A stretch of 57,375 bases of DNA from Clostridia bacterium (lineage in GTDB: Bacteria; Bacillota; Peptococcia; DRI-13; SM3-B62). A model generated the notes under the pieces. It did not search any database and was not told where the DNA came from. It saw only the letters and a list, made by a program, of their open reading frames with translations. The stretch covers positions 1-57,375 of the forward strand of contig JAHDQS010000044.1 of assembly GCA_018433675.1 (NCBI GenBank), in the 5' to 3' direction. A program made the position numbers and the translations under genes. The first letter of the stretch is position 1, and each line of letters begins with the position of its first letter. Shown here one piece after another: positions 15,912-32,759 of the stretch.

Positions 15912-15951
15912 GTTGCAATAACATGCAACAATAAATTGCAATAAAAGCAAC
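15912..15951. promoter_or_regulatory. Putative activator binding sites upstream of citC
   Basis: GTTGCA-N6-TGCAAC (15912-15929) is a perfect inverted repeat, followed by ATTGCAATAAAAGCAAC (15935-15951). These sit 120-165 bp upstream of the -24/-12 promoter, a usual distance for sigma-54 enhancer sites. Similar boxes precede the other two promoters. Confidence 0.65.
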
Positions 15952-16073
15952 AAAATTTCGTGCTGACACAAAATATCAGCTATAATGGCCTAATCTGCAA
16001 ATTCCCTTATGCGCCTTTGCGTTTTTTGCTGTAGGTTTCAATAAAACACTGTATTTCAGTCTTTTATTCAGCA

Positions 16074-16089
16074 TGGCACACAACTTGCA
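16074..16089 (+). promoter_or_regulatory. Sigma-54 (-24/-12) promoter of the cit operon
   Basis: TGGCAC, five bases, TTGCA is an exact match to the sigma-54 consensus, with GG and GC 12 bp apart. Transcription should start near 16100, leaving about 35 nt of leader before citC. Confidence 0.85.
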
Positions 16090-16135
16090 ATACTCTGTTG
16101 AAGAAGAATATTTTCTGCAGAAAGGATATTCGTCG

Positions 16136-17209
16136 ATGGATGAAAGACTTGTAATCAGAGAATTCATGCCGACATTAGAAAATGACCGCAAAATTCTTTC
16201 TGACTTTCTGGCGCGACACCAACTGCGGTATGAGGAGGATATTGAATATGCAGTGGGGCTTTGTGAAAATGACAGATTAATGGCTTGCGGCTGCTGTGCC
16301 GGTGCTTTGCTAAAATGTTTTGCCGTGGAGGAAGAACTACGTGGTAAGAATGTTTTGGGACGTATTGTTTCGGAGCTTGTCGCTAATCGTTTTTCTGCCG
16401 GCTATTATGAGCCGATAGTCATTACTCCTCCGTATAACCGTTTGCTGTTTGTCAACTGTGGTTTCTTTCCTGTGGCGGAAACAGAGGATTTAGTTTTTCT
16501 GGAACAAAGTCCCGACGGTATTGAGCGGTACTACGCTGGAATGCAGCAATTGGAAGATGCCGGGAAAGATGCCGGTGCTATTGTGGTGAACTGCAATCCG
16601 TTCACGCGGGGGCATCGGTATTTGGTTGAATACGCAGCAGCGCATTGCGATTTGTTGCATATTTTTGTGGTGCAGGAGGATAAATCTGTATTTCCGTTTA
16701 AGGTTCGTTTTAACTTGGTTGAGCAAGGTGTTGCCGATCTTCCCAATGTTCGAGTACACGCCGGAGGAAACTATATCATCTCATCCGCGACTTTTCCGAC
16801 GTATTTCCTTAAAAAGGAAGATGATGCTGTAGAACTACAGGCGAAGCTCGACGCGACAGTTTTTGCAAAACGCATTGCGCCTTTACTTTCCCTTAAGGTC
16901 AGATTCGTAGGCTCAGAGCCTAAATGTCCTGTTACCAGCCAATATAACAGGGTGTTGCACAGGGTTCTTCCTGCAGCCGGAATCAAGGTTATTGAGATTT
17001 TGCGTCGGACAACTAAAGATGGAGAGGTTATCAGTGCATCACGAGTACGAAGCCTTCTGGCGGAAGGGATAGCTGATTCATCGTTGCTTAAGCTTGTTCC
17101 GGAAACCACCTACGAATATCTAATAAGTACAAACGCCACCCCCATTATTAAGGCGTTGCAACAAAAGGGGCAAAAAATATCAAGGAGTTATTCTAATTCT
17201 AAAAATTGA
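16136..17209 (+). CDS. citC: [Citrate (pro-3S)-lyase] ligase CitC
   Basis: 357 residues. It activates citrate lyase by acetylating the thiol of the prosthetic group on CitD, using ATP and acetate. An N-terminal GNAT-like domain (about 1-130) is followed by a nucleotidyl-transferase domain with IVVNCNPFTRGHRYL (about 146-160, HxGH-like) and the ISASRVRSLL segment (about 300). I chose ATG 16136 (AAAGGATA upstream) because the in-frame ATG at 16073 lies on the sigma-54 promoter and could not be in the transcript. First gene of the operon. Confidence 0.92.
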   Translation: MDERLVIREFMPTLENDRKILSDFLARHQLRYEEDIEYAVGLCENDRLMACGCCAGALLKCFAVEEELRGKNVLGRIVSELVANRFSAGYYEPIVITPPYNRLLFVNCGFFPVAETEDLVFLEQSPDGIERYYAGMQQLEDAGKDAGAIVVNCNPFTRGHRYLVEYAAAHCDLLHIFVVQEDKSVFPFKVRFNLVEQGVADLPNVRVHAGGNYIISSATFPTYFLKKEDDAVELQAKLDATVFAKRIAPLLSLKVRFVGSEPKCPVTSQYNRVLHRVLPAAGIKVIEILRRTTKDGEVISASRVRSLLAEGIADSSLLKLVPETTYEYLISTNATPIIKALQQKGQKISRSYSNSKN

Positions 17210-17224
17210 AAGGGGTGTTTTTGT

Positions 17225-17521
17225 ATGCAATTAAAACACCCTGCGGTCGCAGGTACGCTCGAGTCCAGCGATGTGCAGGTGACTATCCATCCCAATAACG
17301 GAATGGGGCTGGACATTCGTATTGAGAGTATTGTCAAGGCGCAGTTCGGGGATGCGATTTTGGAAACAGTCGAGGAGGTTCTGGCGTCATTTGGAATTGC
17401 TGAGGCTTTAGTCCGAATCAACGATAAGGGTGCTCTCGATTGGGTCATTCGGGCCCGCATGCAGGCAGCGATATGTCGGGGAGCAGATTGCAGCTTCGAT
17501 TGGAAGGGGGAAGACGCATAA
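17225..17521 (+). CDS. citD: Citrate lyase gamma subunit (acyl carrier protein) CitD
   Basis: 98 residues. It carries the 2'-(5''-triphosphoribosyl)-3'-dephospho-CoA group used to bind the acetyl/citryl moiety. Ser14 in GTLESSDVQV matches the known attachment serine. HPNNGMGLDIRIES is the conserved follow-on. Its stop shares a base with the citE start (TAATG), giving coupled translation and the 1:1 stoichiometry needed for the complex. Confidence 0.94.
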   Translation: MQLKHPAVAGTLESSDVQVTIHPNNGMGLDIRIESIVKAQFGDAILETVEEVLASFGIAEALVRINDKGALDWVIRARMQAAICRGADCSFDWKGEDA

Positions 17522-18429
17522 TGGAACAAAGAGTATCACTGAAACGCACATCTTTGTACGTAAGCGGTTCGAGCCCTGCTAACATAAATGAGGCGGTTTT
17601 TTACAACGAAGATTGCATTGTTTATGATTTGGAAGATTCGGTTCCGACATCAGAAAAAGATACGGCACGGTTGATAGTATACAATGCTTTGCGTTATCAA
17701 CGCCCTGCAGATAAGTACGTCATTATTCGTGTTAATGGTATCTATTCGGAATTCCTCGATGAGGATTTGGAAGCTTCCGTGCGCGCACGTCCTGATGCTT
17801 TGCGTATTCCCAAGGTTGAATCGGCCGAAGAAGTACAAAAGATCTCGGCCAAGGTAGCGGAAATAGAAAGTCAGGTCGGGATTGAGGTTGGTAGTATTGA
17901 ACTTTGGTGTAATATTGAATCTTATCTGGGAGTAATAAACGCTTTGGAGATAGCTTCCGCTGATCCTCGTGTTGTTGCCTTAGCCCTGGGGGCAGAAGAT
18001 TATACTGCCAGTATGAAAGCTCAACGCACTAAACAGGGTTTGGAAATGTTTTATGCCCGCAATGCCTTATTAATAGCCTGTCGTGCAGCCGGCGTTGATG
18101 CTATAGACATGGTATTCTCTGATATCGATGACTTAGAGGGATTACGTGAAGATGTTTCTATGGCAAGAAACCTCGGTTTTGACGGAAAGACTGCCATACA
18201 TCCGCGCCAAATCGATACAATCAATTCTTTCTTCACACCCAGCAAAAAGGAAATAAATTATGCCCTGAGAGTTCTGGCTGCCGTGGAAGAAGGCAAACGG
18301 CTGAACAAAGGTGCCGTTGCCCTTGATGGCAGCATGATCGATAAACCGGTAGAACTGCGTGCCCTTACTACGATAGCCCAGGCTCGCGCCGCAGGGATCA
18401 AGATTGGAGGAGAGAATCATGCCGGTTAA
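17521..18429 (+). CDS. citE: Citrate lyase beta subunit CitE
   Basis: 302 residues, TIM-barrel of the HpcH/HpaI-citE type. It cleaves citryl-ACP to oxaloacetate and acetyl-ACP. Conserved parts: CIVYDLEDSVP (Mg-binding acids, residues about 31-41), YVIIRVNG, LGAEDYTASM and DGKTAIHPRQI. The start is ATG 17521; an earlier in-frame ATG at 17440 lies inside citD. By family, citramalate lyase beta is the nearest alternative and cannot be excluded by eye. Confidence 0.93.
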   Translation: MEQRVSLKRTSLYVSGSSPANINEAVFYNEDCIVYDLEDSVPTSEKDTARLIVYNALRYQRPADKYVIIRVNGIYSEFLDEDLEASVRARPDALRIPKVESAEEVQKISAKVAEIESQVGIEVGSIELWCNIESYLGVINALEIASADPRVVALALGAEDYTASMKAQRTKQGLEMFYARNALLIACRAAGVDAIDMVFSDIDDLEGLREDVSMARNLGFDGKTAIHPRQIDTINSFFTPSKKEINYALRVLAAVEEGKRLNKGAVALDGSMIDKPVELRALTTIAQARAAGIKIGGENHAG

Positions 18430-19978
18430 CGCAGTTGGAAGGGAGTTACCCGAACGTATCGGTAATTATCTTGTCAAGCCGTATCAAGGTACAAATGCCT
18501 TAGAACCAACATCAAAAAAAGTAGTATCCAACCGAGTACTGACTTTGCGTCCGGCCAGCGGCAGCAAGGTTGTTGACACCTTGGAGCAAGCTATTCAAGC
18601 CACCGGGCTCAAAAACGGTATGACCATTTCATTTCATCACAGCTTTCGCGAAGGAGATTTAGTAGTTGGGCAAGTACTGACGGCTATTCGTAATCTTGGT
18701 ATTAAAAACCTTCGGTTTGCGCCTAGTGCAGTGGTTAATATTAAAAATCCATCGATTGTTGATTTCGTGCGCGACGGCACCATCACCCGTATCGAAGCAA
18801 GCGGTATTCGCGGTGAATTAGGCGATGCGGTTATTGACGGACTGATGGAAGAACCGGTCATTTTGCGTACCCACGGAGCCCGACCCCGGGCTATAGAGGC
18901 CGGGGAACTGGAAATAGATGTTGCCTTTATCGGGGCTTCGGCGGCTGACGAATATGGCAACGCTACCGGGCAAATCGGTCCTAACGCTTGCGGAGCATTG
19001 GGATATTCCTTTATTGATGTCACTACTGCAGGCAAAGTGGTTATAATTACTGATAATATGGTGGATTATCCTTGTGTTCCGGCCAGCATCTCACAGCAAT
19101 ATGTTGACTATGTAGTAGTCGTGGAACAGATAGGAATTCCTGAAAAAATTGGGGCCGGGGCAACTCGTATGACCCGCAATCCACGTGATTTAATGATTGC
19201 CCAAAGAATTGCCGATGTTATTGCTGCATCCCGTTTATTTAAAAATAATTTTTCCTTTCAAACCGGGGCAGGATCCATCAGTATCGCATGTACCAACTAT
19301 CTTGCTGATCGGATGGAAGAACGCGGCATTAAGGCAAGCTTTGCCCTGGGTGGTATTACTGCGAACATTGTTGAAATGTTCAACAAGGGTTTGGTAAGGG
19401 TCCTGGAAGGTTCACAGTCTTTTGATGCGGTGGCAGCTCGTGCCATTGCAGAGCATCCAAACATCCTTGAAATTGATAATGCTGTTTACTCCAATATGTA
19501 TGGCAAAGGCTGTATGCTCGATAAACTCAACTTTGGCGTGTTAACTGCGTTGGAGATAGATGTTGATTTCAATTTAAATATTTTAACCGGTTCAAGCGGA
19601 GAAATGATGGGTGGGCTTGGAGGCGGTCCCGATGTTGCCAGCGGTGCCGATATTTCCATTGCCGCCTTGCCAATTGTTCGCGGGAGAACCCCTTCGGTAG
19701 TAAATAAAGTGTTTACCATCTGTACTCCGGGTGAAACCGTGGCCATGGTTGTCACAGAAGCGGGAATCGCTCTCAATCCGCGTCATAAACATTATGAAAT
19801 GCTGCGTGAGGATATGGAAAAGACCGACTTGAAGATAGTATCCATTGAATCGTTGCGTCAGTTGGCAGAATCCTTCACCGGAAAGCCGAAACAGATCGAA
19901 TGTACAGACAAAATTGTGTGCATTGTCGAGTACCGTGACGGCACGGTAATCGATGTCATACGCCAGATCAAACGATGA
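18419..19978 (+). CDS. citF: Citrate lyase alpha subunit CitF
   Basis: 519 residues. It transfers the ACP from acetate to citrate (citrate:acetyl-ACP transferase). It begins MPVNAVGRELPERIGNYLVKPYQG, and conserved parts such as GLKNGMTISFHHSFREGD and GSSGEMMGGLGGGPDVASGA are present. It overlaps citE by 11 nt, with GGAGGAGA as its ribosome site inside citE. Length is as expected for the family. Confidence 0.94.
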   Translation: MPVNAVGRELPERIGNYLVKPYQGTNALEPTSKKVVSNRVLTLRPASGSKVVDTLEQAIQATGLKNGMTISFHHSFREGDLVVGQVLTAIRNLGIKNLRFAPSAVVNIKNPSIVDFVRDGTITRIEASGIRGELGDAVIDGLMEEPVILRTHGARPRAIEAGELEIDVAFIGASAADEYGNATGQIGPNACGALGYSFIDVTTAGKVVIITDNMVDYPCVPASISQQYVDYVVVVEQIGIPEKIGAGATRMTRNPRDLMIAQRIADVIAASRLFKNNFSFQTGAGSISIACTNYLADRMEERGIKASFALGGITANIVEMFNKGLVRVLEGSQSFDAVAARAIAEHPNILEIDNAVYSNMYGKGCMLDKLNFGVLTALEIDVDFNLNILTGSSGEMMGGLGGGPDVASGADISIAALPIVRGRTPSVVNKVFTICTPGETVAMVVTEAGIALNPRHKHYEMLREDMEKTDLKIVSIESLRQLAESFTGKPKQIECTDKIVCIVEYRDGTVIDVIRQIKR

Positions 19979-20014
19979 AAAAAGCTGTACTGCTTTAAAA
20001 AGGGAGACTTTGCA

Positions 20015-20611
20015 ATGAACAAACAGTCCTGTGTGGTTCAGTCTAAAGAAATTCTCGATGCCAGAGAGCGCAGAGCAAAACGTCAGCGCAGTATGCTGGC
20101 TTGCAACGGAGATTGTGTTATCAGTTTTACCCTTAACATCCCAGGCCCCGTTAAACTGAATTCTCTGATTCGGGAAAGCTTTACTGAGGGGCTTGAAAAA
20201 ATCGAGAGAAAGCTTAAGAAAAGCCATGTTGACGTGGTTCAAAAAGAGATGAAGACAGTGAAAACGGGATGTGAAGCCTTAATTTCTGTTGTTTGCGATG
20301 ATGCGCTGAAGATTAAGGGAATGATGGTTGAAATAGAGGATGAACATCCTCTCGGCAGACTGTATGACATAGATGTTATTTCAAAAGACGAGGTGCCCGT
20401 TTCGCGAAGTATGCTGGGGTATCCGGCACGTCGATGCTTGATTTGTGATCACATGGCCCATGAGTGCGCCCGCTCCCAGTGCCATGATTACAAGCTGTTA
20501 CAACGGAAAACCGAATCTATTATGAAAGAGTATTTTTCTTCACGTCGTGTTGTACTGGAAAAAAGCAAGCAATATATCAGCCCGGCTGGGTATTACGATT
20601 GTGCAATATAA
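20015..20611 (+). CDS. citX: Apo-citrate lyase phosphoribosyl-dephospho-CoA transferase CitX
   Basis: 198 residues. It attaches the prosthetic group to CitD. The motif GRLYDIDVI (residues about 113-121) and the late RRCLICDHMAHECARSQCHD (about 147-166) are typical of CitX. CitG, which makes the prosthetic-group precursor, is neither fused here nor found elsewhere in the window, so it must be encoded elsewhere. Confidence 0.92.
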   Translation: MNKQSCVVQSKEILDARERRAKRQRSMLACNGDCVISFTLNIPGPVKLNSLIRESFTEGLEKIERKLKKSHVDVVQKEMKTVKTGCEALISVVCDDALKIKGMMVEIEDEHPLGRLYDIDVISKDEVPVSRSMLGYPARRCLICDHMAHECARSQCHDYKLLQRKTESIMKEYFSSRRVVLEKSKQYISPAGYYDCAI

Positions 20612-20671
20612 TTAAGAGGTAATTATTTAAAATAGTTTAATTATATATTAAGAAGTATTGGAGGGATTAAA

Positions 20672-21643
20672 ATGCCGGTAATTCTTTTAACAAATCATTA
20701 CAACGAAGGGCCGTTGAGTATTGTGCAAGAAGCAGTTCCCGCAGGGTTTAGCCTAGTAACTTTAGATGAGCCAACTAAAGAGGAGTTAATCAAAAAGGCG
20801 AAGGAGGCTGAATATTTTCTGGTAAGCGGACGGCTACCCATTGACAAGGAAGTTTTAGATGCTGCTCCCAAGCTCAAAATGATCCAGAGAACAGGTGTCG
20901 GGACAGAAATGTTTGACATGGAAGCCCTGAAGGAAAAAAACATACCTATTTATGTGAACCCGGGGGTAAATGCCGTAAGTGTGGCAGAACATGCTGTGAT
21001 GCACATTCTTGCCGTTCTTCGTCGAATAACCATAGTGAACGGGAATGTCAAGAAAGGGATTTGGGCAAAACAGGATACAGGAGTACAAAGCAAAGAGCTT
21101 CGTGGAAAAACCGTCGGTATGTTGGGCATGGGTAATATTGGCCGCAATGTGGTTAAGATGTTGAGTGGCTTCGGGGTTAATATCGTGTATTACGATATGT
21201 TCAGACTAAAAGAAGAGCAGGAAAAAGAACTTGGCATCACATATGCTTCACTGGAAGAAGTATTTAAGAAAGCAGACATTTTAAGCCTCCATTGTCCGTT
21301 AACTCCGGAAACAAAGGGCATCATCAATGCAAAATCAATAGCTTTAATGAAAAAAGGTGTCATCATAGTTAATACCGCCAGAGGCGGACTGATAGATGAA
21401 GTTGCCTTAATAAAGGCTCTGGAATCAGGACAAGTCGGCGCGGCGGGACTTGATGTTTTTGCCAAAGAACCGCCGGATAAAGCTAATCCCTTGCTCAGCT
21501 TTGAGAATGTTTCGGTTTCACCTCATGTTGGCGGTTTAACTTATGAAGCATTCAAAAGCATGATGGTAGAAGCAACGCACAACATGAAGCTTTTTGAGGA
21601 AGGCAAGGTCGAAGAGTTAGAGAGTAAGAAGATAAATAAATAA
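20672..21643 (+). CDS. D-isomer-specific 2-hydroxyacid dehydrogenase
   Basis: 323 residues. It is an NAD(P)-dependent reductase/oxidase of 2-oxo/2-hydroxy acids. The Rossmann motif GMLGMGNIGRNV starts near residue 150. Catalytic Arg is in NTARGGLID (about 233), Glu in FAKEPP (about 263) and His in SPHVGG (about 284). AGGAGG stands before the ATG. Its place behind the lyase genes suggests it handles an oxoacid product or a hydroxyacid precursor of the pathway. Confidence 0.92.
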   Translation: MPVILLTNHYNEGPLSIVQEAVPAGFSLVTLDEPTKEELIKKAKEAEYFLVSGRLPIDKEVLDAAPKLKMIQRTGVGTEMFDMEALKEKNIPIYVNPGVNAVSVAEHAVMHILAVLRRITIVNGNVKKGIWAKQDTGVQSKELRGKTVGMLGMGNIGRNVVKMLSGFGVNIVYYDMFRLKEEQEKELGITYASLEEVFKKADILSLHCPLTPETKGIINAKSIALMKKGVIIVNTARGGLIDEVALIKALESGQVGAAGLDVFAKEPPDKANPLLSFENVSVSPHVGGLTYEAFKSMMVEATHNMKLFEEGKVEELESKKINK

Positions 21644-21669
21644 TAAGAAAAAAACAAGGAGTGGTAGAG

Positions 21670-22566
21670 TTGAAAGAGACAAGAGAATTTCTGAAGAAGA
21701 TTGGACAGCCAGAGGGGGATTTATACAATCTGCCGACATCCCAGAAGAGGTTTCCGGACGGCGGTCAGTACAGGTTTGAGGTTCCCGGAATCCAAGGACC
21801 CGGAACAATGAAAACACTGTTGGAGGAACTTGACAAATATAAGATTGCTATTCATCGCGTAACCCAGACCAAAGGCATCATGTCCCTTACCGATGATGAA
21901 ATCAAGACGATGGTAGAACTGGCAAAACAATGGCAGGTGGACCTGATCTTAGCAATCGGGCCGAGAGCTACTACCGACACCAGCGCTTCGGTGCATACAC
22001 CGGAAGGACAGCGCATGGGTTACCGTTTGAGAGGGCAAGAACAAATTGTTCGTGCTGTAGAAGAAGTAAAACGTGCCAGTGCCCTTGGTTGTTATACCTT
22101 CTTAGTATACGATGAGGGAGCTCTGTGGGTATTGGGTAAGATGCGCGAAGAGGGCGAAATCCCGGCAGACTGCAAATTCAAAGTATCGGCACATTCCGGT
22201 CATGGCAATCCCTGCTCGGCTAAACTTCTGGAAGAGCTGGGAGCAAACTCCTTTAACCCGGTAAGAGACTATCAGCTGCAAATGCTGGCTGCCATCAGAT
22301 ACGCCATAGATATCCCGATAGACGTGCATACAGAGAATCCCACATCCTCCGGCGGATTCATTCGTCACTACGAAGTACCTGAGATAGTGAGGGTTGCCGC
22401 TCCGGTATACCTGAAGACCGGCGGTTCAGTTGCAGCAACACACAGTTGGGATTCCACCGATGCGGACGCCAAGAAGAGGGCCAAGCAGATTGTTCTCGTG
22501 AAGAGAATGCTTGATGTCTACTATCCGGAGGCCGTAGCATCTCCCAAAGGTTCAATAGCTCACTGA
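21670..22566 (+). CDS. Unrecognised 298-residue protein, copy 1 (TIM-barrel-like)
   Basis: I do not recognise a described enzyme family with confidence. The pattern of strand-loop motifs (VDLILAIGPRA, FLVYDEGALWVLGKM, CKFKVSAHSGHG, IPIDVHTENP, PVYLKTGG) suggests a TIM barrel with His/Glu/Asp-rich loops that could bind a metal and carboxylates. The TTG at 21670 is preferred because AGGAG stands 8 nt before it; the GTG at 21661 would abut it. A second copy, over 90% identical, follows the PrpD gene. Position makes it a pathway enzyme. Confidence 0.8.
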   Translation: MKETREFLKKIGQPEGDLYNLPTSQKRFPDGGQYRFEVPGIQGPGTMKTLLEELDKYKIAIHRVTQTKGIMSLTDDEIKTMVELAKQWQVDLILAIGPRATTDTSASVHTPEGQRMGYRLRGQEQIVRAVEEVKRASALGCYTFLVYDEGALWVLGKMREEGEIPADCKFKVSAHSGHGNPCSAKLLEELGANSFNPVRDYQLQMLAAIRYAIDIPIDVHTENPTSSGGFIRHYEVPEIVRVAAPVYLKTGGSVAATHSWDSTDADAKKRAKQIVLVKRMLDVYYPEAVASPKGSIAH

Positions 22567-22591
22567 GAGTATTGATATTAAAAGAGATTGG

Positions 22592-23953
22592 ATGATAATA
22601 ATGAAAAAGAATCTTACGGATATCCTGATAGACGATCTATATAAACAGATAAACGAACAGATTCCGGAAGCCGTTGTAATGCAGGCCAAAAAGTGTTTAC
22701 TTGACTATTTGGGAACGGGACTGGCCGGCGCAGCTATGGTTCAGGATAAGGCCCAAAAGTATCTGGACTTCTTTGATACAACACAGAATGAGGCTACAGT
22801 AGTGGGTTTTAAGAGAAAGGCAGCCCTTCATAATGCAGTATTTGTAAACGGATATGCCGCACACTTAACAGAATTGGACGACGGACATCGCTTTTGCAAT
22901 GTACACTTGGGAACCACGATAATTCCGGCTGTCTTGGCTGTGGCGGAATACGAGGGATTAAAGGGAGAAGATGTATTGCGGGGTATCGTCATCGGATACG
23001 AGGCTGCAATTCGCTTGTTACGCGCAATTCAGCCCTCACATAAGAATCGTGGATATCATGCCTCGGGTACCGGCGGGACGATTGGTGCCGCCATGGGTAT
23101 TGCAGCGGCATTGAAGTTTTCCAAGCCGCAAATGAAGGATGCTCTTTCCGCGGCAATCGCCAGTGTTGTCGGTTTTCTGGAGGTTTTGGAAGATGATTCG
23201 GAACTTAAACCCTATAACGTAGGGAGAGCCGGACATGATGGCTTGACAGCAGCTTATGTGGCACGTGCAGGATTCAAAGGACCAAATGATATGGTAGGAG
23301 GCAAGAGAGCATTTTTTGCCCTTATGTCAGATCAATATGACGAGACCAGTCTAAACAGAGAAAAAGACGGTGCTTACGGTATTGAAATGGTCTACAGAAA
23401 GCCTTATGCTGCGTGTCGACACTGTCATGCGCCGATTGAGGCAGCCCTTAATCTCAAGAAAAAACACGACATTGAGATTTGGGACATTAGGGAAATAGAT
23501 GTGTATACCTATAAGGCGGCGGTACTCGGGCATGAATATACGAACATACAAGGTATTACTTCGGCTAAGATGAGTACTCCGTTTAGTGTTGCTGTAGCCC
23601 TTGCAACCGGCAGAGCCGGGCTCAATGAGTTTTTGCCGCAATATATAGAAGACAAAAACATTATTGCGCTGAACCAAAAGGTCAAGGTTGAAGAAGACAA
23701 GGAACTTACGGCCCTCGTACCCAACAAACGTGGTGCGATTGTAAAGATTGTTACTAACGACGGTAAGATATATATCGAAAGGGTCGATTATCCAAAAGGA
23801 GAACCGGAGAACTCCATGTCGGTTGAAGATATAGAAGAAAAGTTCATTTCTTTGGCGATGTATGGAGGAAGAACAGAAGAGGAAGCTAAGAGGATAATTC
23901 AACAGGCCTGGAATATTGAGGGCGGCTTATCAGAACTATTCGCTATGCTGTAA
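22592..23953 (+). CDS. MmgE/PrpD-family dehydratase
   Basis: 453 residues. The family contains 2-methylcitrate dehydratase (PrpD), citrate/methylcitrate dehydratase (MmgE), aconitate decarboxylase and iminodisuccinate epimerase. Visible family parts: DYLGTGLAGA (about 30-40), FVNGYAAHLTELDDGHR (about 86-102), ASGTGGTIGAAMG and KPYAACRHCHAPIEAAL (about 271-287). Co-location with citrate lyase and a PrpR-type regulator favours a tricarboxylate substrate. Start uncertain by 9 nt (ATG 22592 or 22601). Confidence 0.9.
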   Translation: MIIMKKNLTDILIDDLYKQINEQIPEAVVMQAKKCLLDYLGTGLAGAAMVQDKAQKYLDFFDTTQNEATVVGFKRKAALHNAVFVNGYAAHLTELDDGHRFCNVHLGTTIIPAVLAVAEYEGLKGEDVLRGIVIGYEAAIRLLRAIQPSHKNRGYHASGTGGTIGAAMGIAAALKFSKPQMKDALSAAIASVVGFLEVLEDDSELKPYNVGRAGHDGLTAAYVARAGFKGPNDMVGGKRAFFALMSDQYDETSLNREKDGAYGIEMVYRKPYAACRHCHAPIEAALNLKKKHDIEIWDIREIDVYTYKAAVLGHEYTNIQGITSAKMSTPFSVAVALATGRAGLNEFLPQYIEDKNIIALNQKVKVEEDKELTALVPNKRGAIVKIVTNDGKIYIERVDYPKGEPENSMSVEDIEEKFISLAMYGGRTEEEAKRIIQQAWNIEGGLSELFAML

Positions 23954-23966
23954 AAATGCTGTGAAT

Positions 23967-24016: not shown

Positions 24017-24048
24017 AAAAAAAGAAAAAAATATAAGGAGTGGTTGAG

Positions 24049-24945
24049 TTGAAAGAGACAAGAGAATTTCTGAAGAAGATTGGACAACCGGCAGGAGATT
24101 TATACAATCTGCCAACATCCCAGAAGAGGTTTTCAGACGGAGGCCAGTACAGGTTTGAGGTACCCGGAATCCAGGGACCCGGAACAATGAAAACACTGTT
24201 GGAGGAACTTGACAGGTATAAAATAGCTATTCACCGCGTAACCCAGACCAAGGGTATCATGTCCCTTACTGATGAGGAAATTTCTAAGATGGTAGCTTTA
24301 GCAAAAGAATGGCAGGTAGACCTGATTTTAGCAATCGGACCGAGAGCAACTACCGACACCAGCGCTTCAGTGCATACCCCGGAAGGACAGCGTATGGGTT
24401 ACCGTTTGAGAGGGCAAGAACAAATAGTTCGTGCTGTCGAAGAAGTAAAACGTGCCAGCTCTTTGGGATGCCGTTCCTTCTTAGTATACGATGAAGGCGC
24501 TCTGTGGGTATTGGGCAAGATGCGCAAAGAGGGCGAAATCCCGGCAGACTGCAAGTTCAAAGTATCGGCACACTCCGGCCATGGCAATCCCTGCTCGGCT
24601 AAGCTGGTGGAAGAACTGGGGGCAGACTCCTTTAACCCGGTAAGAGATATTCAGCTTCAGATGTTGGCTGCCATCAGGTATGCCATTGATATCCCCATCG
24701 ACATCCATACAGAGAATCCCAAGTCCTCCGGCGGATTTATCCGTCACTATGAAGTACCTGAGATAGTGCGGGTTGCCGCTCCGGTATATCTGAAGACCGG
24801 CGGTTCAGTTGCTGCAACACATAGCTGGGATTCCACCGATGCAGATGCCAAGAAGAGAGCCAAGCAGATTGTTCTCGTTAAGAGAATGCTTGATGTCTAC
24901 TATCCGGAGGCTATATCATCTCCCCAAGGTTCAATAGCGCACTAA
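24049..24945 (+). CDS. Unrecognised 298-residue protein, copy 2 (TIM-barrel-like)
   Basis: Same protein as copy 1 with scattered changes (for example REEGEIPADC to RKEGEIPADC; VASPKG to SSPQG near the end). The duplication includes the ribosome site and TTG start (AAGGAGTGGTTGAG before 24049). Both copies keep every Gly/His/Asp-rich loop, so both look functional. They may form a heteromer, act on two stereoisomers, or reflect recent gene amplification. Confidence 0.8.
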   Translation: MKETREFLKKIGQPAGDLYNLPTSQKRFSDGGQYRFEVPGIQGPGTMKTLLEELDRYKIAIHRVTQTKGIMSLTDEEISKMVALAKEWQVDLILAIGPRATTDTSASVHTPEGQRMGYRLRGQEQIVRAVEEVKRASSLGCRSFLVYDEGALWVLGKMRKEGEIPADCKFKVSAHSGHGNPCSAKLVEELGADSFNPVRDIQLQMLAAIRYAIDIPIDIHTENPKSSGGFIRHYEVPEIVRVAAPVYLKTGGSVAATHSWDSTDADAKKRAKQIVLVKRMLDVYYPEAISSPQGSIAH

Positions 24946-24973: not shown

Positions 24974-25477
24974 ATGAAAAAAATAGTCACACCTATTACA
25001 GATGAAGCGATTAATGAAATCGCAGTGGGTGATATGGTTTATTTATCCGGCTATATCTATACCGGGAGAGATGCAGTGCTGCCAAAGGTATTAGAATTGA
25101 TAGAGTCCGATGGATTGGAAAAAGCCGGCATCAATTTGCAAGGCAGTGTGATTTTCCACACGGCTGTGAGCCCTGCAGGTGTCGGACCTACTTCAAGCAA
25201 TAAGCTTGAGATCGAAGGGAGCATTCCAGCCCTTTCAAAAGCCGGCGTCAAACTGCATTTAGGCAAAGGCGAGTTGAGTAGTAAAACTATCGAAGAGCTT
25301 GATAAATATAACTCGGTCTACGCTGTTATTCCTCCGGTTACCGCGTTGTTAGAAAGCAAGACACTGGAACGTAAGCTAGTGGCCTTCCCCGAACTGGGAA
25401 TGGAAGCACTGCATCTGTTGAAGGTAGATAGCTTTCCGGCTATTATAGCCGCAGCTCATGGTAAATCAATATATTAA
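24974..25477 (+). CDS. Class I fumarase/tartrate dehydratase-type hydratase, beta subunit
   Basis: 167 residues, corresponding to the C-terminal (swivelling) domain of class I fumarases. The loop PAGVGPTSSNKLE (residues about 56-68) corresponds to the substrate-binding GPTTSARM segment of fumarases, with Asn-Lys in place of Ala-Arg. Two-subunit relatives hydrate fumarate, L-tartrate or mesaconate. It lies directly upstream of the alpha subunit; beta-before-alpha is the less common order. Confidence 0.87.
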   Translation: MKKIVTPITDEAINEIAVGDMVYLSGYIYTGRDAVLPKVLELIESDGLEKAGINLQGSVIFHTAVSPAGVGPTSSNKLEIEGSIPALSKAGVKLHLGKGELSSKTIEELDKYNSVYAVIPPVTALLESKTLERKLVAFPELGMEALHLLKVDSFPAIIAAAHGKSIY

Positions 25478-25501
25478 TAAATAGAAAGAGGAATGGTGGC
25501 A

Positions 25502-26362
25502 ATGACAATGAAACAGCAAGAAATGATCATCAATAAAATTAAAGACACCCTGGTTAGAGCAGGATCGACCTTTAGGGAGGACCAAAAAGAAGCTTACCGC
25601 CAAGCCATTAAAAAAGAAACTCTTCCTAGGGCAAAGTGGGTGTTGGAAACGATATTGGAAGACGCAGAGGTTGCGGAAAAGAATCGCAGTCCACTGTGTG
25701 ACGACACCGGAATTCCACATGTATTCTTGGAGGTAGGTCCGAACAAGAGCGTAACCGGAGCAGATCTTGAAGCAATACGGCTAGGTGTAGCCGAAGGGCT
25801 TCGCGAACTGCCGGGTCGTCCGATGGGAATTAAGGGAGACGACAAGCAAAGGTTAGACCAATCAGGTGGATTAGATGAAGACTCCGCAGGCGTATTGCCA
25901 GCCCCGATACTTATTAAACAAGTGGAAGAAGATGTACTCAGAGCCCACGTTCTGATGCTGGGGGGCGGGCCCGCCATTAGAGGTATAACACATCGGGTTT
26001 TCCATAAACACAGTGTATCTGTAGTTACAGATGAAATCGTAAAAAGGGCGAGTGAAGCGGTCGCTTTATTAGGATGCTCACCCTGCGCGTTGTCAGTCGG
26101 TATAGGCAGGTCACAATTCGAAGCCTCATCGCTGATGATTGAAGCCATGGTATATAGCAATTTTGCGGTTCAAAGCGATTTGGAAAAAAAGATAACAGAT
26201 AAAGTAAATGAAAGCAATGTCGGCCCACTCGGGTTGAAAGGCGCCACTTCGGTCTTAGCCACGTTTATGAAGGTAGGTCCGCAAAGGGCAAGCGGTATCA
26301 GAGTTGTCTGCATGCGTCCCAGCTGCTGTTTCGAACCGCGGATGGCAAGCGTGGAATTGTAA
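25502..26362 (+). CDS. Class I fumarase/tartrate dehydratase-type hydratase, alpha subunit (4Fe-4S)
   Basis: 286 residues. It binds the catalytic 4Fe-4S cluster. Candidate ligand cysteines lie in SPLCDDTGIP (about 65), LGCSPCALSVGIG (about 191-194) and the end segment VVCMRPSCCFEPR (about 270-277). Conserved GGGPAIRGITHRVF is present. Substrate could be fumarate, mesaconate, tartrate or a larger unsaturated acid; the operon context leaves this open. ATG 25502 is preferred because ATG 25493 touches the AGAGGA ribosome site. Confidence 0.88.
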   Translation: MTMKQQEMIINKIKDTLVRAGSTFREDQKEAYRQAIKKETLPRAKWVLETILEDAEVAEKNRSPLCDDTGIPHVFLEVGPNKSVTGADLEAIRLGVAEGLRELPGRPMGIKGDDKQRLDQSGGLDEDSAGVLPAPILIKQVEEDVLRAHVLMLGGGPAIRGITHRVFHKHSVSVVTDEIVKRASEAVALLGCSPCALSVGIGRSQFEASSLMIEAMVYSNFAVQSDLEKKITDKVNESNVGPLGLKGATSVLATFMKVGPQRASGIRVVCMRPSCCFEPRMASVEL

Positions 26363-26414
26363 GGTTGTTACTTGCCGAGAATGCGATAATAAATAGTAGA
26401 ATGGGGGCGGCAAA

Positions 26415-27470
26415 ATGACAGAGGGAAAAAGAGTTGATTGGCAGAAGGCAAGGGAGCTTTGCGCGAAAATCTATATGGCACGAGGTATTCCGGAGGCGGA
26501 TGCGTATATGGTATCTGATAATTTGATATCCGCTGAGCTTAATGGAGTGTATTCCCACGGTATCACCAGAATGAAGATGTATATGAGATATATTGATAAA
26601 GGACAGGCTAACAGTAGTGGTGAAATCAAGATAATCAATGAAGGTCCTGCTACGCTGCATATTGATGGTAATAACTGTTTAGGTGCCGTAGTTGCTACTA
26701 AGGCTGTCAAAAAAGGTATAGCAAAGGCTAAAGAAATGGGTGCCGCTATTGTCAGTGTGCGCCGCTCGAATCACTTTGGCACAGCCGCCTATTATACACA
26801 AATGATTGCCGAACAGGGTATGGTAGGTATAGCCGCGACCAATGCTTTTCCCCATGTTGCTCCTTTGGGCAGTTCTAAGGAGTATCTAGGGACTAACCCG
26901 ATATCTTTCGGTGCTCCGACAGCCTCGGGCAAGCCGATGATACTGGATATGGCCACCTCAGTGGTAGCCAGAGGGAAAATATCGGTCGCTGCCGAAAAGG
27001 GTGAGCCGATTCCTCTTGGTTGGGCTCTTGATGCCGACGGGAATCCAACTACTGATGCCAAAGCGGCTGCTAACGGAGTCTTATTGCCAATTGCCGGTCC
27101 CAAGGGATATGGATTGTCACTGTTTATTGACGTGCTTTCCGGAGTGTTATCCGGAGCCAAGTTTGGTGGACATTTAGGACCACATGCCGTTGGAAATACA
27201 TCAAAAGATACCGACGTTGGTCATTTCTTTGTAATCGTCGATATTTCCCGCTTTATGCCTCTTGATGAGTTTAACGAGCGCATGGGTGTGATAATCAGCG
27301 ACATTAAGGCCTTGCCAAAAATCGAAGGCGTTTCTGAAATATTTATGCCGGGAGAGATTGAGCAACGCAAGGTTGATGTTAACATGAAGGAAGGTCTGCT
27401 GCTGAGCGAGGCGCTGTTAGGTGAGCTCCAAAAGATGTGTGAACGTTTCGGCATTGACTTCAATCTATAA
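26415..27470 (+). CDS. Ldh2/MDH2-family NAD(P)-dependent dehydrogenase
   Basis: 351 residues of the malate/L-sulfolactate/ureidoglycolate dehydrogenase family, which has a non-Rossmann NADH fold. Typical parts: NGVYSHGITRMKMYMR (residues about 44-59), VSVRRSNHFGTAAYYTQ with the catalytic His (about 113-129), LGTNPISFGAPT and GPKGYGLSLFIDVLSG. Oxidation of a 2-hydroxyacid such as malate to an oxoacid fits the pathway. GGGGGCG before the ATG is the likely ribosome site. Confidence 0.9.
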   Translation: MTEGKRVDWQKARELCAKIYMARGIPEADAYMVSDNLISAELNGVYSHGITRMKMYMRYIDKGQANSSGEIKIINEGPATLHIDGNNCLGAVVATKAVKKGIAKAKEMGAAIVSVRRSNHFGTAAYYTQMIAEQGMVGIAATNAFPHVAPLGSSKEYLGTNPISFGAPTASGKPMILDMATSVVARGKISVAAEKGEPIPLGWALDADGNPTTDAKAAANGVLLPIAGPKGYGLSLFIDVLSGVLSGAKFGGHLGPHAVGNTSKDTDVGHFFVIVDISRFMPLDEFNERMGVIISDIKALPKIEGVSEIFMPGEIEQRKVDVNMKEGLLLSEALLGELQKMCERFGIDFNL

Positions 27471-27490
27471 GGGTTTAGACAATGTGTTAG

Positions 27491-27544
27491 AGGCTGTCTT
27501 ACTATGGGATAATGCAAAAATGGGTATCCTGGGTAAGACAGCCT
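27491..27544 (+). other. 12-bp hairpin between Ldh2-type and C45 genes
   Basis: AGGCTGTCTTAC (27491-27502) is perfectly complementary to GTAAGACAGCCT (27533-27544), with an inner GGAT/ATCC pair. No T run follows. It may be an RNA processing or attenuation site separating two parts of the operon. Confidence 0.55.
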
Positions 27545-27579
27545 TTAACATAAGGTGTTCAAAGGAGGGATTGGAATCC

Positions 27580-28773
27580 ATGGAAATAGTTATTGCAAAG
27601 GGAACTTATGAGAGAATGGGATATGAACTGGGGATCAAACTGGCGGAGGCTATACGTCACAACATTTCTTTATTGAATCAGGGTATCGTGGCTAAAGGGA
27701 TTGAGAAGAAAGCAGTATATCGCTTGATTAGCAGTTATACAACATTACTCAGTAACACTTCCATACAATTGATGGAGGGTTTAAGCCGGGGGAGCGGCGT
27801 ACCCTTTGAATCGATTCTTCGTTTTAATGCCTTGCAGGATGCCTTTTTTCAGGAAGAATGTACGACTTTTGCTGCTATCGGGAAAGCTACGGCTGATGGT
27901 AAGGCCTTTTTATTGAAGAACAGGGATACGAGCGGAAATCGTGAATTCAATGGTCCGGCGTATTACAAGAATAGGACGGTTAACGTTACTTTGGTTCTTC
28001 AAACAGACGATGGAAATGTAATGATTGGCGTAACAAACGCTGGGTCAACCGGGTTTATGATGGGAATGAACAAATATGGGGTCGCCGTAGCCAGCAATAT
28101 GGGGCAAACTAAAGAAATCAGTAAAGTACCACCCAAAGAAAGGCAGGGCATCAGCGGGAGGCCCCAAATGCTGCGGGAGAGCTTAGAATGCACTGCAGCT
28201 CACGATGCTGTAAATCTTATTCTATCCAAGCTGACAAAGTCTTCTATGAGATTACCGGGAATCCTATGGTTTGTTGATGCTAATAACATCTACGTTGTTG
28301 AAGGTACCGGCGGACAATTTGCTGTCCAGCATGTCACAGATGGCACCGTTTCCAGAAGCAATCACTTTGAGTTAATGGAACAGTTCAATAATGAAAAGGA
28401 ACCTTCTCCAATATGTCGTAAAATACGCGCAAAAGAACTTCTTGAATTAAATCACGGGCATATTGACAGAGAAAAGATGATAGAGTTTTCGATGGACCAC
28501 AAAAATGGACCGGGTGAGAACTCGATATGTCGTCACAGTAAAGACCCGGAAGAGAGTGTGACCGTATCGGCGGCAATCATGGAGATTGATAAAGAAAACC
28601 CTCAGAAATCGAAAATAAGCATTGCCTTAGGAACTCCCTGCCAAGCTTGGGGCGAGGAAGGGGGTAGTATTACGATTCGGTTGGATGAGGATGTTGAAGC
28701 GATACCACAGCGTTTTCTCGATAATACTGCCTTTACGGAGTATTTTAAGCCTACCAGCCTACTTAAGAGTTAA
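27580..28773 (+). CDS. C45-family Ntn-hydrolase (acyl-CoA:6-aminopenicillanate acyltransferase-like)
   Basis: 397 residues from ATG 27580 (AAAGGAGG upstream). C45 enzymes self-cleave to expose an N-terminal Cys and hydrolyse or form amide bonds. The likely nucleophile is Cys94 in QEECTTFAA, followed by the family segments AFLLKNRDTSGN, MIGVTNAGSTGFMMGMNKYGVAV and the late SKDPEESVTVSAAIMEI. In a catabolic operon it may split an amide-linked substrate. The segment before Cys94 would be the propeptide. Confidence 0.85.
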   Translation: MEIVIAKGTYERMGYELGIKLAEAIRHNISLLNQGIVAKGIEKKAVYRLISSYTTLLSNTSIQLMEGLSRGSGVPFESILRFNALQDAFFQEECTTFAAIGKATADGKAFLLKNRDTSGNREFNGPAYYKNRTVNVTLVLQTDDGNVMIGVTNAGSTGFMMGMNKYGVAVASNMGQTKEISKVPPKERQGISGRPQMLRESLECTAAHDAVNLILSKLTKSSMRLPGILWFVDANNIYVVEGTGGQFAVQHVTDGTVSRSNHFELMEQFNNEKEPSPICRKIRAKELLELNHGHIDREKMIEFSMDHKNGPGENSICRHSKDPEESVTVSAAIMEIDKENPQKSKISIALGTPCQAWGEEGGSITIRLDEDVEAIPQRFLDNTAFTEYFKPTSLLKS

Positions 28774-28796
28774 CTTAGAAAAAAGAGGTAATAAAC

Positions 28797-29669
28797 ATGA
28801 GAAGTGTCGATACAAATCAAAAATTTAGTTATGACGAGTTTAAAAGGGATTATGTTGAGAGAAAAATGATGTTTCATAGGAAGCCTTCGATTGCATACTG
28901 CAAACCCTTTCGCATTTTTGGCAACCTTTACTATATCGGCGATAAAAGGGTGTGCTCGCACCTTGTTGACACCGGCGAAGGATTGATTGTTTTCGATAGC
29001 GGTTACCAGCACACGATTCACTTGTTGGTACAGTCGATATGGGAGATGGGCTTTAATCCGGCTGACATTAAGTATCTCATCCATACACATGGACACTTTG
29101 ATCATTTCGGTGCCAGCAATGAATTCCGCGCACTCTATAAGTGCACGACCGTTATGAGTCGTGTGGATACGGAAATGTTGCGGGATAAACCCGAGGGTGC
29201 TCTGATGGAGTTAAGTTCAGATCCTGATGCTGAACTTCCCATAATAGACAAAACCTTCGAGGATGGAGAGATCATTGCTCTTGGCAACACTTCGATCCGG
29301 TGTGTTCTTACGCCAGGGCATTCGCCAGGCAACTCCGCATTCTTTTTTGATGTGCGGGATGGGAAACAGACGTATACAGTTGCCTATTTTGGTGGTGCAG
29401 GGTTCAATTGGGTGCGCAAGGGATTTTTGGATAGATATAACTTTCCTTATTCCTTACGCAATGATTTTATTAAATCTATTGATAAGGTTCGAGGCGAGAA
29501 GGCAGATATTGTTTTAGGGAGTCATCCGGGACAATACAACTTGTTTGAGAAAAGAAAACGCATGGAGGAAAACCTGCAAAGCAATCCGTTTATTGATCCC
29601 GGTGAGTGGGAGAGGTATTTGACCGGACTTAAGGCAAGATACCAAGAATTCCTGGTTAATGAAGAGTAA
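28797..29669 (+). CDS. MBL-fold metallo-hydrolase
   Basis: 290 residues. The zinc motif HTHGHFDHFGA begins near residue 96. LTPGHSPGNSAFFFDVR (about 170-186) supplies the next His. VLGSHPGQYN near residue 240 supplies the last. The overall layout resembles subclass B3-like hydrolases and lactonases. The substrate is unknown; ester, lactone or thioester hydrolysis fits the operon. Last gene before the second sigma-54 promoter. Confidence 0.88.
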   Translation: MRSVDTNQKFSYDEFKRDYVERKMMFHRKPSIAYCKPFRIFGNLYYIGDKRVCSHLVDTGEGLIVFDSGYQHTIHLLVQSIWEMGFNPADIKYLIHTHGHFDHFGASNEFRALYKCTTVMSRVDTEMLRDKPEGALMELSSDPDAELPIIDKTFEDGEIIALGNTSIRCVLTPGHSPGNSAFFFDVRDGKQTYTVAYFGGAGFNWVRKGFLDRYNFPYSLRNDFIKSIDKVRGEKADIVLGSHPGQYNLFEKRKRMEENLQSNPFIDPGEWERYLTGLKARYQEFLVNEE

Positions 29670-29710
29670 GGAACGCAGACATATAAAATCCTTGCAGACG
29701 TATGAAACAC

Positions 29711-29768
29711 GATGCAATACAAACAACACAACCGCTACGAAAACGCAACAAATGCAACAATTCTTGCA
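29711..29768. promoter_or_regulatory. Putative activator sites upstream of the binding-protein gene
   Basis: Boxes GATGCAAT (29711), GCAACAAATGCAAC (29744-29757) and TGCAACAATTCTTGCA (29753-29768, an inverted repeat). They stand about 110-165 bp before the -24/-12 promoter, and the motif is shared with the other two enhancer-like regions. Confidence 0.6.
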
Positions 29769-29877
29769 AGATGCCTTTGCTTCGATGATAAGACTAAAAC
29801 TATTATGCTCCTCGATATATCAATGATACCAAGCTTTATAAGCAGAAATACAGGTTTAATTCAAGATAAAGAAAAAA

Positions 29878-29893
29878 TGGCACGAGAATTGCA
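29878..29893 (+). promoter_or_regulatory. Sigma-54 (-24/-12) promoter before the peptide-binding protein
   Basis: TGGCAC, five bases, TTGCA again fits the consensus exactly. Start of transcription should be near 29905, giving a leader of about 140 nt before the lipoprotein start at 30044. The rest of the 374-bp gap contains no gene I can support. Confidence 0.83.
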
Positions 29894-30043
29894 AATATTA
29901 TTATTATATAATTCACCTTAAAAACTATATGGGTATTTGTATACCGTCAGGAAGAAAATATGTCAAAGGAGGGATAATAACTAAAAAAAGAGATTTAGAC
30001 GTTAAAGAGAAGTAAATAAAATTAATAGGGAGGAAAGATAAAC

Positions 30044-31567
30044 GTGAGAAAACAAAGGAAAATAATTGCATTGTTATTGGTTGTTATGATGCTCGTAGTA
30101 TTAATGGTCGGCTGTTCTCCAAAAGAGGAAGAAGAACCGGCGGTCAGTGAAGGTAGTTACGCGGAGGAGGTTATCGTAACAGCTGCTGCTGCTCCTCCGG
30201 CACTTGACCCTAATATTTCAACAGCTAATGCATCGCGAAGATTCACTTCCCACGTGTATGAGACTCTGTTGAAATTTGATCCTGCCACAAAATCGGCAAA
30301 ACCTTGGCTGGCAGAATCATGGGAAGAGTCTGCCCCTGGCGAATATATTTTCCATCTTCGTGAAGGCGTTAAATTCCATAAAGGTGAAACCCTCACCGCC
30401 GCAGATGTAAAGTACACATATGAAAGATGCATGACACTGCCCGCGGCGCTCCCGTTTGTTGAAATCATTGATAAAATCGAGGTTATCGATGATCTTACTG
30501 TGAAGATTACCCTCAAAAATCCCTCTCCGATATTCCTCGGCAACCTCTGCCATATGGTGACAGCTATCATCAAAGAAGGTTCGGGAGAAGGGCTTGCAGA
30601 AAATCCGAATGGGACAAATGCCTACATTATGACAGAACACAAAGCCGACGACTATGTAATGCTCGAGCGCTTTGATGATTATTGGGGTGGTGTAAAGCCC
30701 ACAAAACGTATTAAAATGAGGATTATTCCGGACAACAACGCCCGCAACCTGGCCGTAGAGGCCGGCGATATTCATGTCGGTATTCAGGTTACCAATGCCG
30801 ACTATAGTTCGCTGAAGAACAATCCAAATGTTACTATCTTGGCTGTACCTTCAATTCTCGTTGAGTATTTTTCCATGAACGTCTCCAAGCCGCCCTTTGA
30901 TGATGTGCATGTTAGAAAGGCCATAGCTTACGCATTCAATAAGGAAGTGGTTATTGACGGCATTTACGAGGGTGATGCCCTCAACGCCAAATCGTTCATT
31001 AATGTTAGTGCCTTTGGATACGATCCCGATGTAAAACACTACGAGTATAACGTTGACAAGGCTAAGGAAGAATTGGCCAAGTCCAAATACCCAGATGGGT
31101 TTGAATTCGACTGCTATACCACATCCTCCCGTGGCAGATACACAGAGGCGTTGCAGTATGACCTGTCACAAATAGGCATTACTATGAACGTTGAATTCGT
31201 CCAAAACGTAGCGGCGGCTATAAATACCGGCTACGAGGGCGCTCATATTACCTCTGTTCAGTATCCTACGTATGATGCTGACCAAGTCTACAGATACTTG
31301 CACTCCAGCACTCATGGAGCAGGTGGTAACATGTCCTGGTATGCGAACCCGAAAATGGATGAATTGCTGGAGGCTAGCAGGGTAGAAATGGATACTGCCA
31401 AGCGCGAGCAAATATTCAAGGACATCCAGGAGCTTATGTATGAGGAAGCAATCAACATCCCGATACTGACCAGGATAGTAAAGGCTGCTATCGTTAAGGG
31501 AGTAGGCGGATTTGAGCCTGATGCGGCAACGATAGATTACTTTGGTGATGTTTACCTCGAGCAGTAA
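30044..31567 (+). CDS. ABC transporter substrate-binding lipoprotein, family 5 (DppA/OppA-like)
   Basis: 507 residues. GTG start with GGGAGGAAAG upstream. Signal peptide with lipobox LMVGC (Cys24), so it is anchored outside the membrane. SBP_bac_5 domain parts: WLAESWEESAPGEYIFHLREGVKFHKGE (residues about 87-114), YTYERCM and KPPFDDVHVRKAIAYAFNKE (about 283-302). It delivers peptides, glycosides or related solutes to the DppBCDF pore downstream. In this operon it should bind the pathway substrate. High expression is likely: it has its own sigma-54 promoter and a terminator. Confidence 0.93.
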   Translation: MRKQRKIIALLLVVMMLVVLMVGCSPKEEEEPAVSEGSYAEEVIVTAAAAPPALDPNISTANASRRFTSHVYETLLKFDPATKSAKPWLAESWEESAPGEYIFHLREGVKFHKGETLTAADVKYTYERCMTLPAALPFVEIIDKIEVIDDLTVKITLKNPSPIFLGNLCHMVTAIIKEGSGEGLAENPNGTNAYIMTEHKADDYVMLERFDDYWGGVKPTKRIKMRIIPDNNARNLAVEAGDIHVGIQVTNADYSSLKNNPNVTILAVPSILVEYFSMNVSKPPFDDVHVRKAIAYAFNKEVVIDGIYEGDALNAKSFINVSAFGYDPDVKHYEYNVDKAKEELAKSKYPDGFEFDCYTTSSRGRYTEALQYDLSQIGITMNVEFVQNVAAAINTGYEGAHITSVQYPTYDADQVYRYLHSSTHGAGGNMSWYANPKMDELLEASRVEMDTAKREQIFKDIQELMYEEAINIPILTRIVKAAIVKGVGGFEPDAATIDYFGDVYLEQ

Positions 31568-31575
31568 GGATCTAA

Positions 31576-31617
31576 AAAAAAACAGTGCTGTCCTTTATGA
31601 GGCAGCACTGTTTTTTC
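31576..31617 (+). terminator. Rho-independent terminator after the binding-protein gene
   Basis: AACAGTGCTG (31581-31590) pairs with CAGCACTGTT (31603-31612), followed by TTTT. It may let the binding protein be made in excess over downstream genes. Confidence 0.85.
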
Positions 31618-31669
31618 TTACTAGCGAAAGTGTTAGTTATTCTGAATGAAAATGGAAGAGAGTGATAAG

Positions 31670-32476
31670 ATGACAAGTCATAAGTTTATTGAAAACACGT
31701 CAGAGTACTTGCATAAGATTGCATCCCAGGCCCTTGTTATTATTCCTGTTGGCTCAGTCGAACAGCATGGACCACACTTACCGGTGGGCAGTGATTCATA
31801 CAATGTACAGCAAATAGCGGAAATGGCTGCGGAGAAAACGCAAAACAAGATGATTCTTGTTGCACCAACGCTCTGGTACGGGAGTTCCCATCACCATCTC
31901 GGATTTGGAGGATGTATGTCCCTGGGGGGGAAGACGCTTTTAGCTGTGCTTTGTGATTTGGGTAACTCCTTAGTAACAGGTGGGGTCAAGAAAATATTCT
32001 TTCTTAATGGACATGGCGGTAACCGCTTTATGCTCCGCGAAGCGGCAAAAGAACTGGTGAACGAATATAACAATGATGTGATAATCGGATCGTCGGATTA
32101 TTGGGAAATAGCCCGTGAAGCTTTGGCAGACATTAAGATTAAAACCCCCGGGCATGCCGGATCATTTGAGACGGCCCTGCAAATGGCTAGGGATGAAAAA
32201 CTCGTTGATTATGATGCTATTAAGCATTTAATAAATGGTACTAAACCTGATTCCAAGGATTATCAATATCGTATCATCAGCCAGGCGGAAAGAGATCAAT
32301 TAAGATTCCAGTCACTTAGAAGCAGAGGCAATATTAACCGCAAGGATGCTTTTGTTAAAGCCGGAGGTATTTCTGAAGTGCCGGAGTTCGCCACAAGAGA
32401 GCTTGGCGAACAAATATTAACTATAGTTGTTGATGAAGTAGCAAAGTTCTTTGTCGAGTTTTGGGAGCACTCTTGA
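31670..32476 (+). CDS. Creatininase-family amidohydrolase
   Basis: 268 residues. The family hydrolyses cyclic or formyl amides using two metals. Metal-binding parts are VGSVEQHGPHLPVGSDS (residues about 24-40), NGHGGNRF (about 113-120) and HAGSFETALQM (about 161-171). ATG 31670 is preferred over 31646. Being located between the binding protein and the permease genes supports a role in opening an amide of the imported compound. True creatinine use is not implied. Confidence 0.87.
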   Translation: MTSHKFIENTSEYLHKIASQALVIIPVGSVEQHGPHLPVGSDSYNVQQIAEMAAEKTQNKMILVAPTLWYGSSHHHLGFGGCMSLGGKTLLAVLCDLGNSLVTGGVKKIFFLNGHGGNRFMLREAAKELVNEYNNDVIIGSSDYWEIAREALADIKIKTPGHAGSFETALQMARDEKLVDYDAIKHLINGTKPDSKDYQYRIISQAERDQLRFQSLRSRGNINRKDAFVKAGGISEVPEFATRELGEQILTIVVDEVAKFFVEFWEHS

Positions 32477-32565
32477 AATATTTAACTATAACAGGAAATA
32501 TTTAACCATGGAAGGAAGTTTCAACAACAAAAAAGAATTATAAGTTTTAGGGCAGAAATGCACTA

Positions 32566-32625
32566 AATATGCAACAAGTGCAATGATACGCAACAAATTG
32601 GTGCAACCTTGCATTACAATAGGCA
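32566..32625. promoter_or_regulatory. Putative activator sites upstream of dppB
   Basis: ATGCAACAAGTGCAATG, GCAACAAATTGGTGCAAC and CTTGCATTAC form a cluster of TGCAA/TTGCA boxes 120-180 bp before the third -24/-12 promoter. Two units share GCAACAA with the site before the binding-protein gene. Confidence 0.58.
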
Positions 32626-32743
32626 GAAATATATGTGATGGTAGATATTTGGAAGGCAGTTTGTGACTTGATAATTCAAGAAATATCACGTGATAAGGCA
32701 AAGTCTATGAAGAGGTGGAAAATAAAGCATTTTCTAAATAGAT

Positions 32744-32759
32744 TGGTATAGAAATTGCA
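32744..32759 (+). promoter_or_regulatory. Sigma-54-type promoter before dppB
   Basis: TGGTAT, five bases, TTGCA keeps the invariant GG and GC at the correct 12-bp spacing; only the -22/-21 bases depart from consensus. Start would be near 32770, with about 240 nt of leader. I see no convincing gene in 32477-33011. Confidence 0.68.

Follow-up and report, generated by a model that had tools for sequence, protein, structure and literature searches.

Three operons of a clostridial genome very probably form one sigma-54 regulon under a single PrpR-type activator

We identified three neighbouring operons, encoding a citrate-lyase-type pathway, a solute-binding protein and a dppBCDF-type transporter, which very probably form one sigma-54 regulon under a single PrpR-type activator acting through a common upstream site. 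Each operon starts behind a sigma-54 -24/-12 element that is preceded by the same kind of enhancer, and the activator gene lies divergently from the first operon. We infer binding, looping and activation by this activator, as well as the RpoN dependence and the ligand, from these arrangements. The window, meaning the whole stretch of DNA that was analysed (57,375 nucleotides), is contig C6 of a 3.0 Mb genome in 58 contigs. The regulatory features are the following:

13978..15843, minus strand: sigma-54 activator (EBP) of 621 aa with PrpR_N, PAS, AAA+ with GAFTGA, and Fis-type HTH_8 (Pfam and translation)
15890..15918, minus strand: candidate extended -10 sigma-70 promoter of the activator gene, weak (TTGCAA-17-TACAGT, TG before the -10)
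15912..15952, plus strand: enhancer (UAS) 1, before citC, GTTGCAATAACATGCAACAATAAATTGCAATAAAAGCAACA
16074..16089, plus strand: sigma-54 -24/-12 element of the cit operon, TGGCACACAACTTGCA, kept in the sibling genome
29713..29769, plus strand: enhancer (UAS) 2, before the binding-protein gene, core ACGCAACAAATGCAACAATTCTTGCAA
29878..29893, plus strand: sigma-54 -24/-12 element of the binding-protein gene, TGGCACGAGAATTGCA
32559..32614, plus strand: enhancer (UAS) 3, before dppB, core TGCAACAAGTGCAATGATACGCAACAAATTGGTGCAACCTTGCA
32744..32759, plus strand: sigma-54 -24/-12 element of dppBCDF, TGGTATAGAAATTGCA

The promoters proposed in the original prediction at 16074, 29878 and 32744 were recovered at exactly these positions, and all three match TGGYAYN5TTGCW and keep the GG-N10-GC spacing. 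The narrower pattern TGGCAYN5TTGC has two matches in the window, where 0.22 are expected, while the dppB promoter carries the less typical form TGGTAT. One sigma-54 gene (rpoN) is present in the genome (Sigma54_DBD, E 7.7e-60). Matches in a sigma-70 consensus scan stayed at the level of shuffled sequence, and no clear terminators were found between the three operons.

The TGCAA/TTGCA boxes that had been predicted upstream are likewise found at all three promoters, 109-185 bp before the -24 element, in clusters of the words TGCAA, TTGCA and GCAAC. All three share the element GCAACAA-N4-6-TGCAA with flanking GCAA half-sites, and the putative site can be read as a TGCA-N8/9-TGCA dyad of imperfect symmetry, TGCAACAAnnnnTTGCA, preceded 9-10 bp upstream by a further GCAA half-site. 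Nowhere else in the 57-kb window are TGCAA/TTGCA words packed as densely as in these three enhancers (per-promoter P 0.024, 0.002 and 0.039). A first-order Markov window is expected to hold 1.9 clusters of at least four boxes, so density by itself is not rare; the cluster count was dropped as sole evidence, and the weight is therefore carried by the position before the promoters and by the genome-wide comparison. No Rfam element reached its gathering score between 11000 and 40000.

The genome-wide comparison consisted of pattern searches and of the stretches around the matches. TGGYAYN5TTGCW has 51 exact matches in the genome, some of which are chance matches in coding sequence, such as C20:20096, where a coding frame begins. 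When this consensus was combined with the TGCAA boxes in the kind of genome scan that the original prediction had proposed, the three window promoters ranked first to third of the 51 for clustered boxes: within 300 bp upstream they reach 5, 5 and 4 boxes per 80 bp, and the next best sites reach 3. The pattern GCAACAAN4-6TGCAA occurs six times in the genome; three of these occurrences are the enhancers described here and the other three sit in open frames lacking a sigma-54 element. Matches of a looser half-site pair outside the window fall mostly in long open frames, and in 900-bp stretches around the enhancer-like matches outside the window no full-consensus sigma-54 element was found. The full enhancer element stands at no other of the 51 exact-consensus sigma-54 sites. 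The enhancer pattern was derived from the sites themselves, a circularity which leave-one-out models remove in part only; in these models, built from any two promoters and including the sibling orthologs, the held-out third promoter ranked first of the 49 eligible promoters in all three cases; its lead over the runner-up was wide when citC or the binding-protein gene was held out and narrower when dppB was.

A sibling genome of the same genus (G001) holds the whole region in identical gene order at about 90% DNA identity. Of the fixed -24/-12 positions 1 in 33 has changed there (TGGCAC to TGGCAT). Before dppB none of the 27 box-core bases has changed, against 7 of the 29 non-core enhancer bases (Fisher P 0.011), and before citC the enhancer has 1 change in 41 positions compared to 33 in 121 of the spacer between enhancer and promoter (P 0.0003). 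The single change in the citC enhancer is one base lost between two half-sites, which shortens the dyad from 17 to 16 bp, the form found before the binding-protein gene. The contrast rests on this one close sibling and becomes modest once the three regions are pooled (P 0.027), since almost nothing has changed anywhere in the binding-protein region. In a contig scan with the activator the sibling protein (96% identity) was the only ortholog, with none beyond the genus, so that the footprint covers this genus. In related genomes, distant PrpR-type relatives have TTTCAT/ATGAAA-like boxes by inspection.

The activator was correctly predicted to be PrpR-type and divergent from citC: it contains PrpR_N and a sigma-54 interaction domain (PF00158, E 9e-70), lies on the minus strand and shares the intergenic region with citC. 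It scores 387.1 bits with the PrpR equivalog TIGR02329 and does not reach the cut-off of 499.2. Like PrpR it would combine a PrpR_N sensor, AAA+ and Fis-type HTH with sigma-54 dependence, and it is divergent from a target operon containing a PrpD-family gene; unlike PrpR, it stays below that cut-off and has citrate-lyase-type and Dpp genes as its predicted targets. The genome holds about 25 strong sigma-54 activators, a high number for 3 Mb. The DNA-binding domain of this activator is unlike those of the other activators where the C-terminal domain is comparable, the best by score matching in 15 of 39 aligned residues. Enhancer 1 is located about 70-110 bp upstream of the activator start. The candidate sigma-70 promoter of the activator gene is absent from the output of the consensus scan; since its -35 falls inside the enhancer boxes, the activator might weakly be suspected of negative autoregulation.

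The predicted target operons comprise the following genes:

16136..17209, plus strand: citC, citrate lyase ligase (TIGR00124, above cut-off; corrected start)
17225..17521, plus strand: citD-like acyl carrier protein of 98 aa (identified from its position, length and N-terminal sequence)
17521..18429, plus strand: citE-like lyase beta subunit (TIGR01588, under the equivalog cut-off)
18404..19978, plus strand: citF, lyase alpha subunit (TIGR01584, above cut-off; open frame, start may be later)
20015..20611, plus strand: citX, holo-ACP synthase (TIGR03124, above cut-off)
20672..21643, plus strand: D-2-hydroxyacid dehydrogenase
21661..22566, plus strand: 301-aa protein (P0002) with no Pfam or NCBIfam family
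22592..23953, plus strand: MmgE/PrpD family protein (nearest solved relatives are IRG1-type proteins and iminodisuccinate epimerase)
24040..24945, plus strand: second copy of the 301-aa protein (P0003), 93% identical to the first
24974..26362, plus strand: class-I fumarase-type hydro-lyase, two subunits
26415..27470, plus strand: Ldh_2 family dehydrogenase
27421..28773, plus strand: AAT-type (NTN) acyltransferase/amidohydrolase
28797..29669, plus strand: metallo-beta-lactamase-fold protein, last gene of operon 1
30044..31567, plus strand: SBP_bac_5 solute-binding protein, operon 2
31646..32476, plus strand: creatininase-family amidohydrolase, operon 2
33012..36840, plus strand: dppBCDF-type ABC transporter with two permeases and two ATPases, operon 3

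The frame start of citC at 16073 had to be given up: the frame opened there runs over the -24 element, and in the sibling an indel interrupts it. The true start is most likely the ATG at 16136, with its own ribosome-binding site AGAAAGGA upstream. Such a start agrees with the proposed promoter, since a sigma-54 message would begin downstream of 16073. The label citrate lyase stands in part: citC, citF and citX pass curated cut-offs, whereas the citE-like protein scores 315 bits against an equivalog cut-off of 443. The enzyme could equally be a citramalate lyase, and its substrate would be citrate, citramalate or a related acid. As in known citCDEFX clusters, citC, citD-like, citE-like, citF and citX are present with the order kept. 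In contrast to those clusters, the citE-like protein is under its cut-off, citG lies elsewhere in the genome outside the cit operon, the promoter is of the sigma-54 type, and the PrpD-like, class-I hydratase, Ldh_2 and unassigned genes belong to the same operon.

In the proposed mechanism the PrpR_N/PAS region would sense an intracellular metabolite, the activator would bind the common site 109-185 bp before the three -24/-12 promoters, and its AAA+ ring would remodel sigma-54 RNA polymerase. Operon 1 from citC onward, with its lyase, dehydratase and dehydrogenase genes, would be induced jointly with the binding-protein and amidohydrolase genes of operon 2 and with dppBCDF, with uptake and breakdown of one substrate switched on as a unit. 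That the citrate-lyase, dehydratase and transporter genes are switched on together, as originally suggested, is supported by the common enhancer, the conservation in the sibling and the position of the activator at the citC intergenic region, and the suggested single small-molecule inducer fits the one-component architecture of PrpR_N and PAS.

The activator might instead drive the adjacent cit operon only, with the binding-protein and dpp promoters answering another activator that has similar TGCAA boxes. TGCA-type half-sites are frequent among Fis-type activators, as in NtrC and RocR sites. There are also some 25 strong candidates in this genome, and control of one operon applies to 170 of 263 clostridial activators, that is to most of them, in the survey of PMC6615313. 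We nevertheless regard a second activator as improbable, because the full enhancer is common to all three promoters and absent from every other consensus sigma-54 site, and because the compared activators have clearly different DNA-binding domains. The three promoters could also be products of composition, with TGCAA words from AT-rich intergenic DNA and at least one -24/-12 match that is not used, so that ordinary promoters or read-through from citC would serve the genes. TGCAA clusters that are not rare by themselves, consensus sites that are plainly coding (C20:20096) and three operons with no clear terminator between them agree with such an origin; the boxes, however, are positioned before all three promoters, the composite element is rare genome-wide, the leave-one-out models and the sibling conservation both point to a real site, and sigma-70 matches are at the shuffled level. 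An origin by chance is thus highly improbable, and we retain the regulon of three operons under one activator.

Nie et al. 2019 described 39 groups of clostridial one-component EBP regulons (PMC6615313). These share with our regulon a PAS-containing one-component EBP adjoining its targets, multiple UAS units placed 100-250 bp before the -24/-12 element, and one to six operons; the CitP group controls the transporter gene citA only. The main text of the survey names neither a comparable regulon for citrate-lyase or Dpp genes nor a TGCAA motif. The circuit design is standard in Clostridia, and the UAS motif and the target set are new relative to that main text. PrpR-type activators in G003, G007, G009, G038, L071 and L074 were compared for shared boxes, and their boxes differ from those described here. 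In the last two loci (Cuneatibacter and Hominifimenecus) the activator, 38-40% identical to ours, precedes a Dpp-type transporter, and sigma-54-like elements of the form TGGCAC/TGGCAT-N5-TTGCG lie between the two.

For the 301-aa protein a phmmer search gave no credible PDB relative, and the AlphaFold model (pLDDT 46) is too poor for use. Relatives occur in 32 of 398 genomes drawn from the phylum, this genome counted, and often adjoin Ldh_2 and the fumarase-type pair; a PrpD gene is adjacent in one case and creatininase or D-2-hydroxyacid dehydrogenase relatives in others. Because these neighbours recur, the target genes look like one pathway, and the recurrence of Ldh_2 and fumarase-type pairs beside the relatives suggests that the 301-aa protein stands for an unassigned enzyme family. 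In a genome of another family (L264/L265, G137:C1:1290000-1329999) a 76% identical 301-aa protein is encoded near PrpD-like (43%) and hydratase (62-63%) genes; neither a PrpR-type activator nor cit genes were found with it in this 40-kb locus. Its only exact sigma-54 element is about 5 kb or more away from these genes, and with no such activator beside them we rejected the locus as a distant counterpart of the complete operon. Three further loci with 301-aa relatives (L206, L207 and L208) have sigma-54 elements with TTTCAT/ATGAAA-like repeats upstream, not TGCAA arrays, and in L206 and L207 the arrangement is divergent, with a PrpR-type activator on the other side. In these three loci different activators thus seem to have taken charge of the pathway core.

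As a tentative reading, which we hold to be possible, the regulon may serve an undescribed catabolic pathway. An amide- or peptide-like compound would be imported by the Dpp system and opened by amidohydrolases; the 301-aa protein, Ldh_2, PrpD-like and class-I hydratase enzymes would convert it to a citrate- or citramalate-type acid, which the lyase would split, and an intermediate would be the ligand of the activator. For a PrpR-type regulator a testable set of activator, site and targets is obtained, and a Dpp-type importer would be tied to one specific catabolic operon, which narrows the search for the substrate of an uncharacterised enzyme set. The core of this set, the 301-aa protein, Ldh_2 and the hydratase pair, recurs across the phylum.

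Elsewhere in the window, positions 45338-49831 encode a protein of 1497 aa with matches to Ig/fibronectin-type domains and a C-terminal match to S-layer SbsC, which by these domain matches is probably a surface protein.
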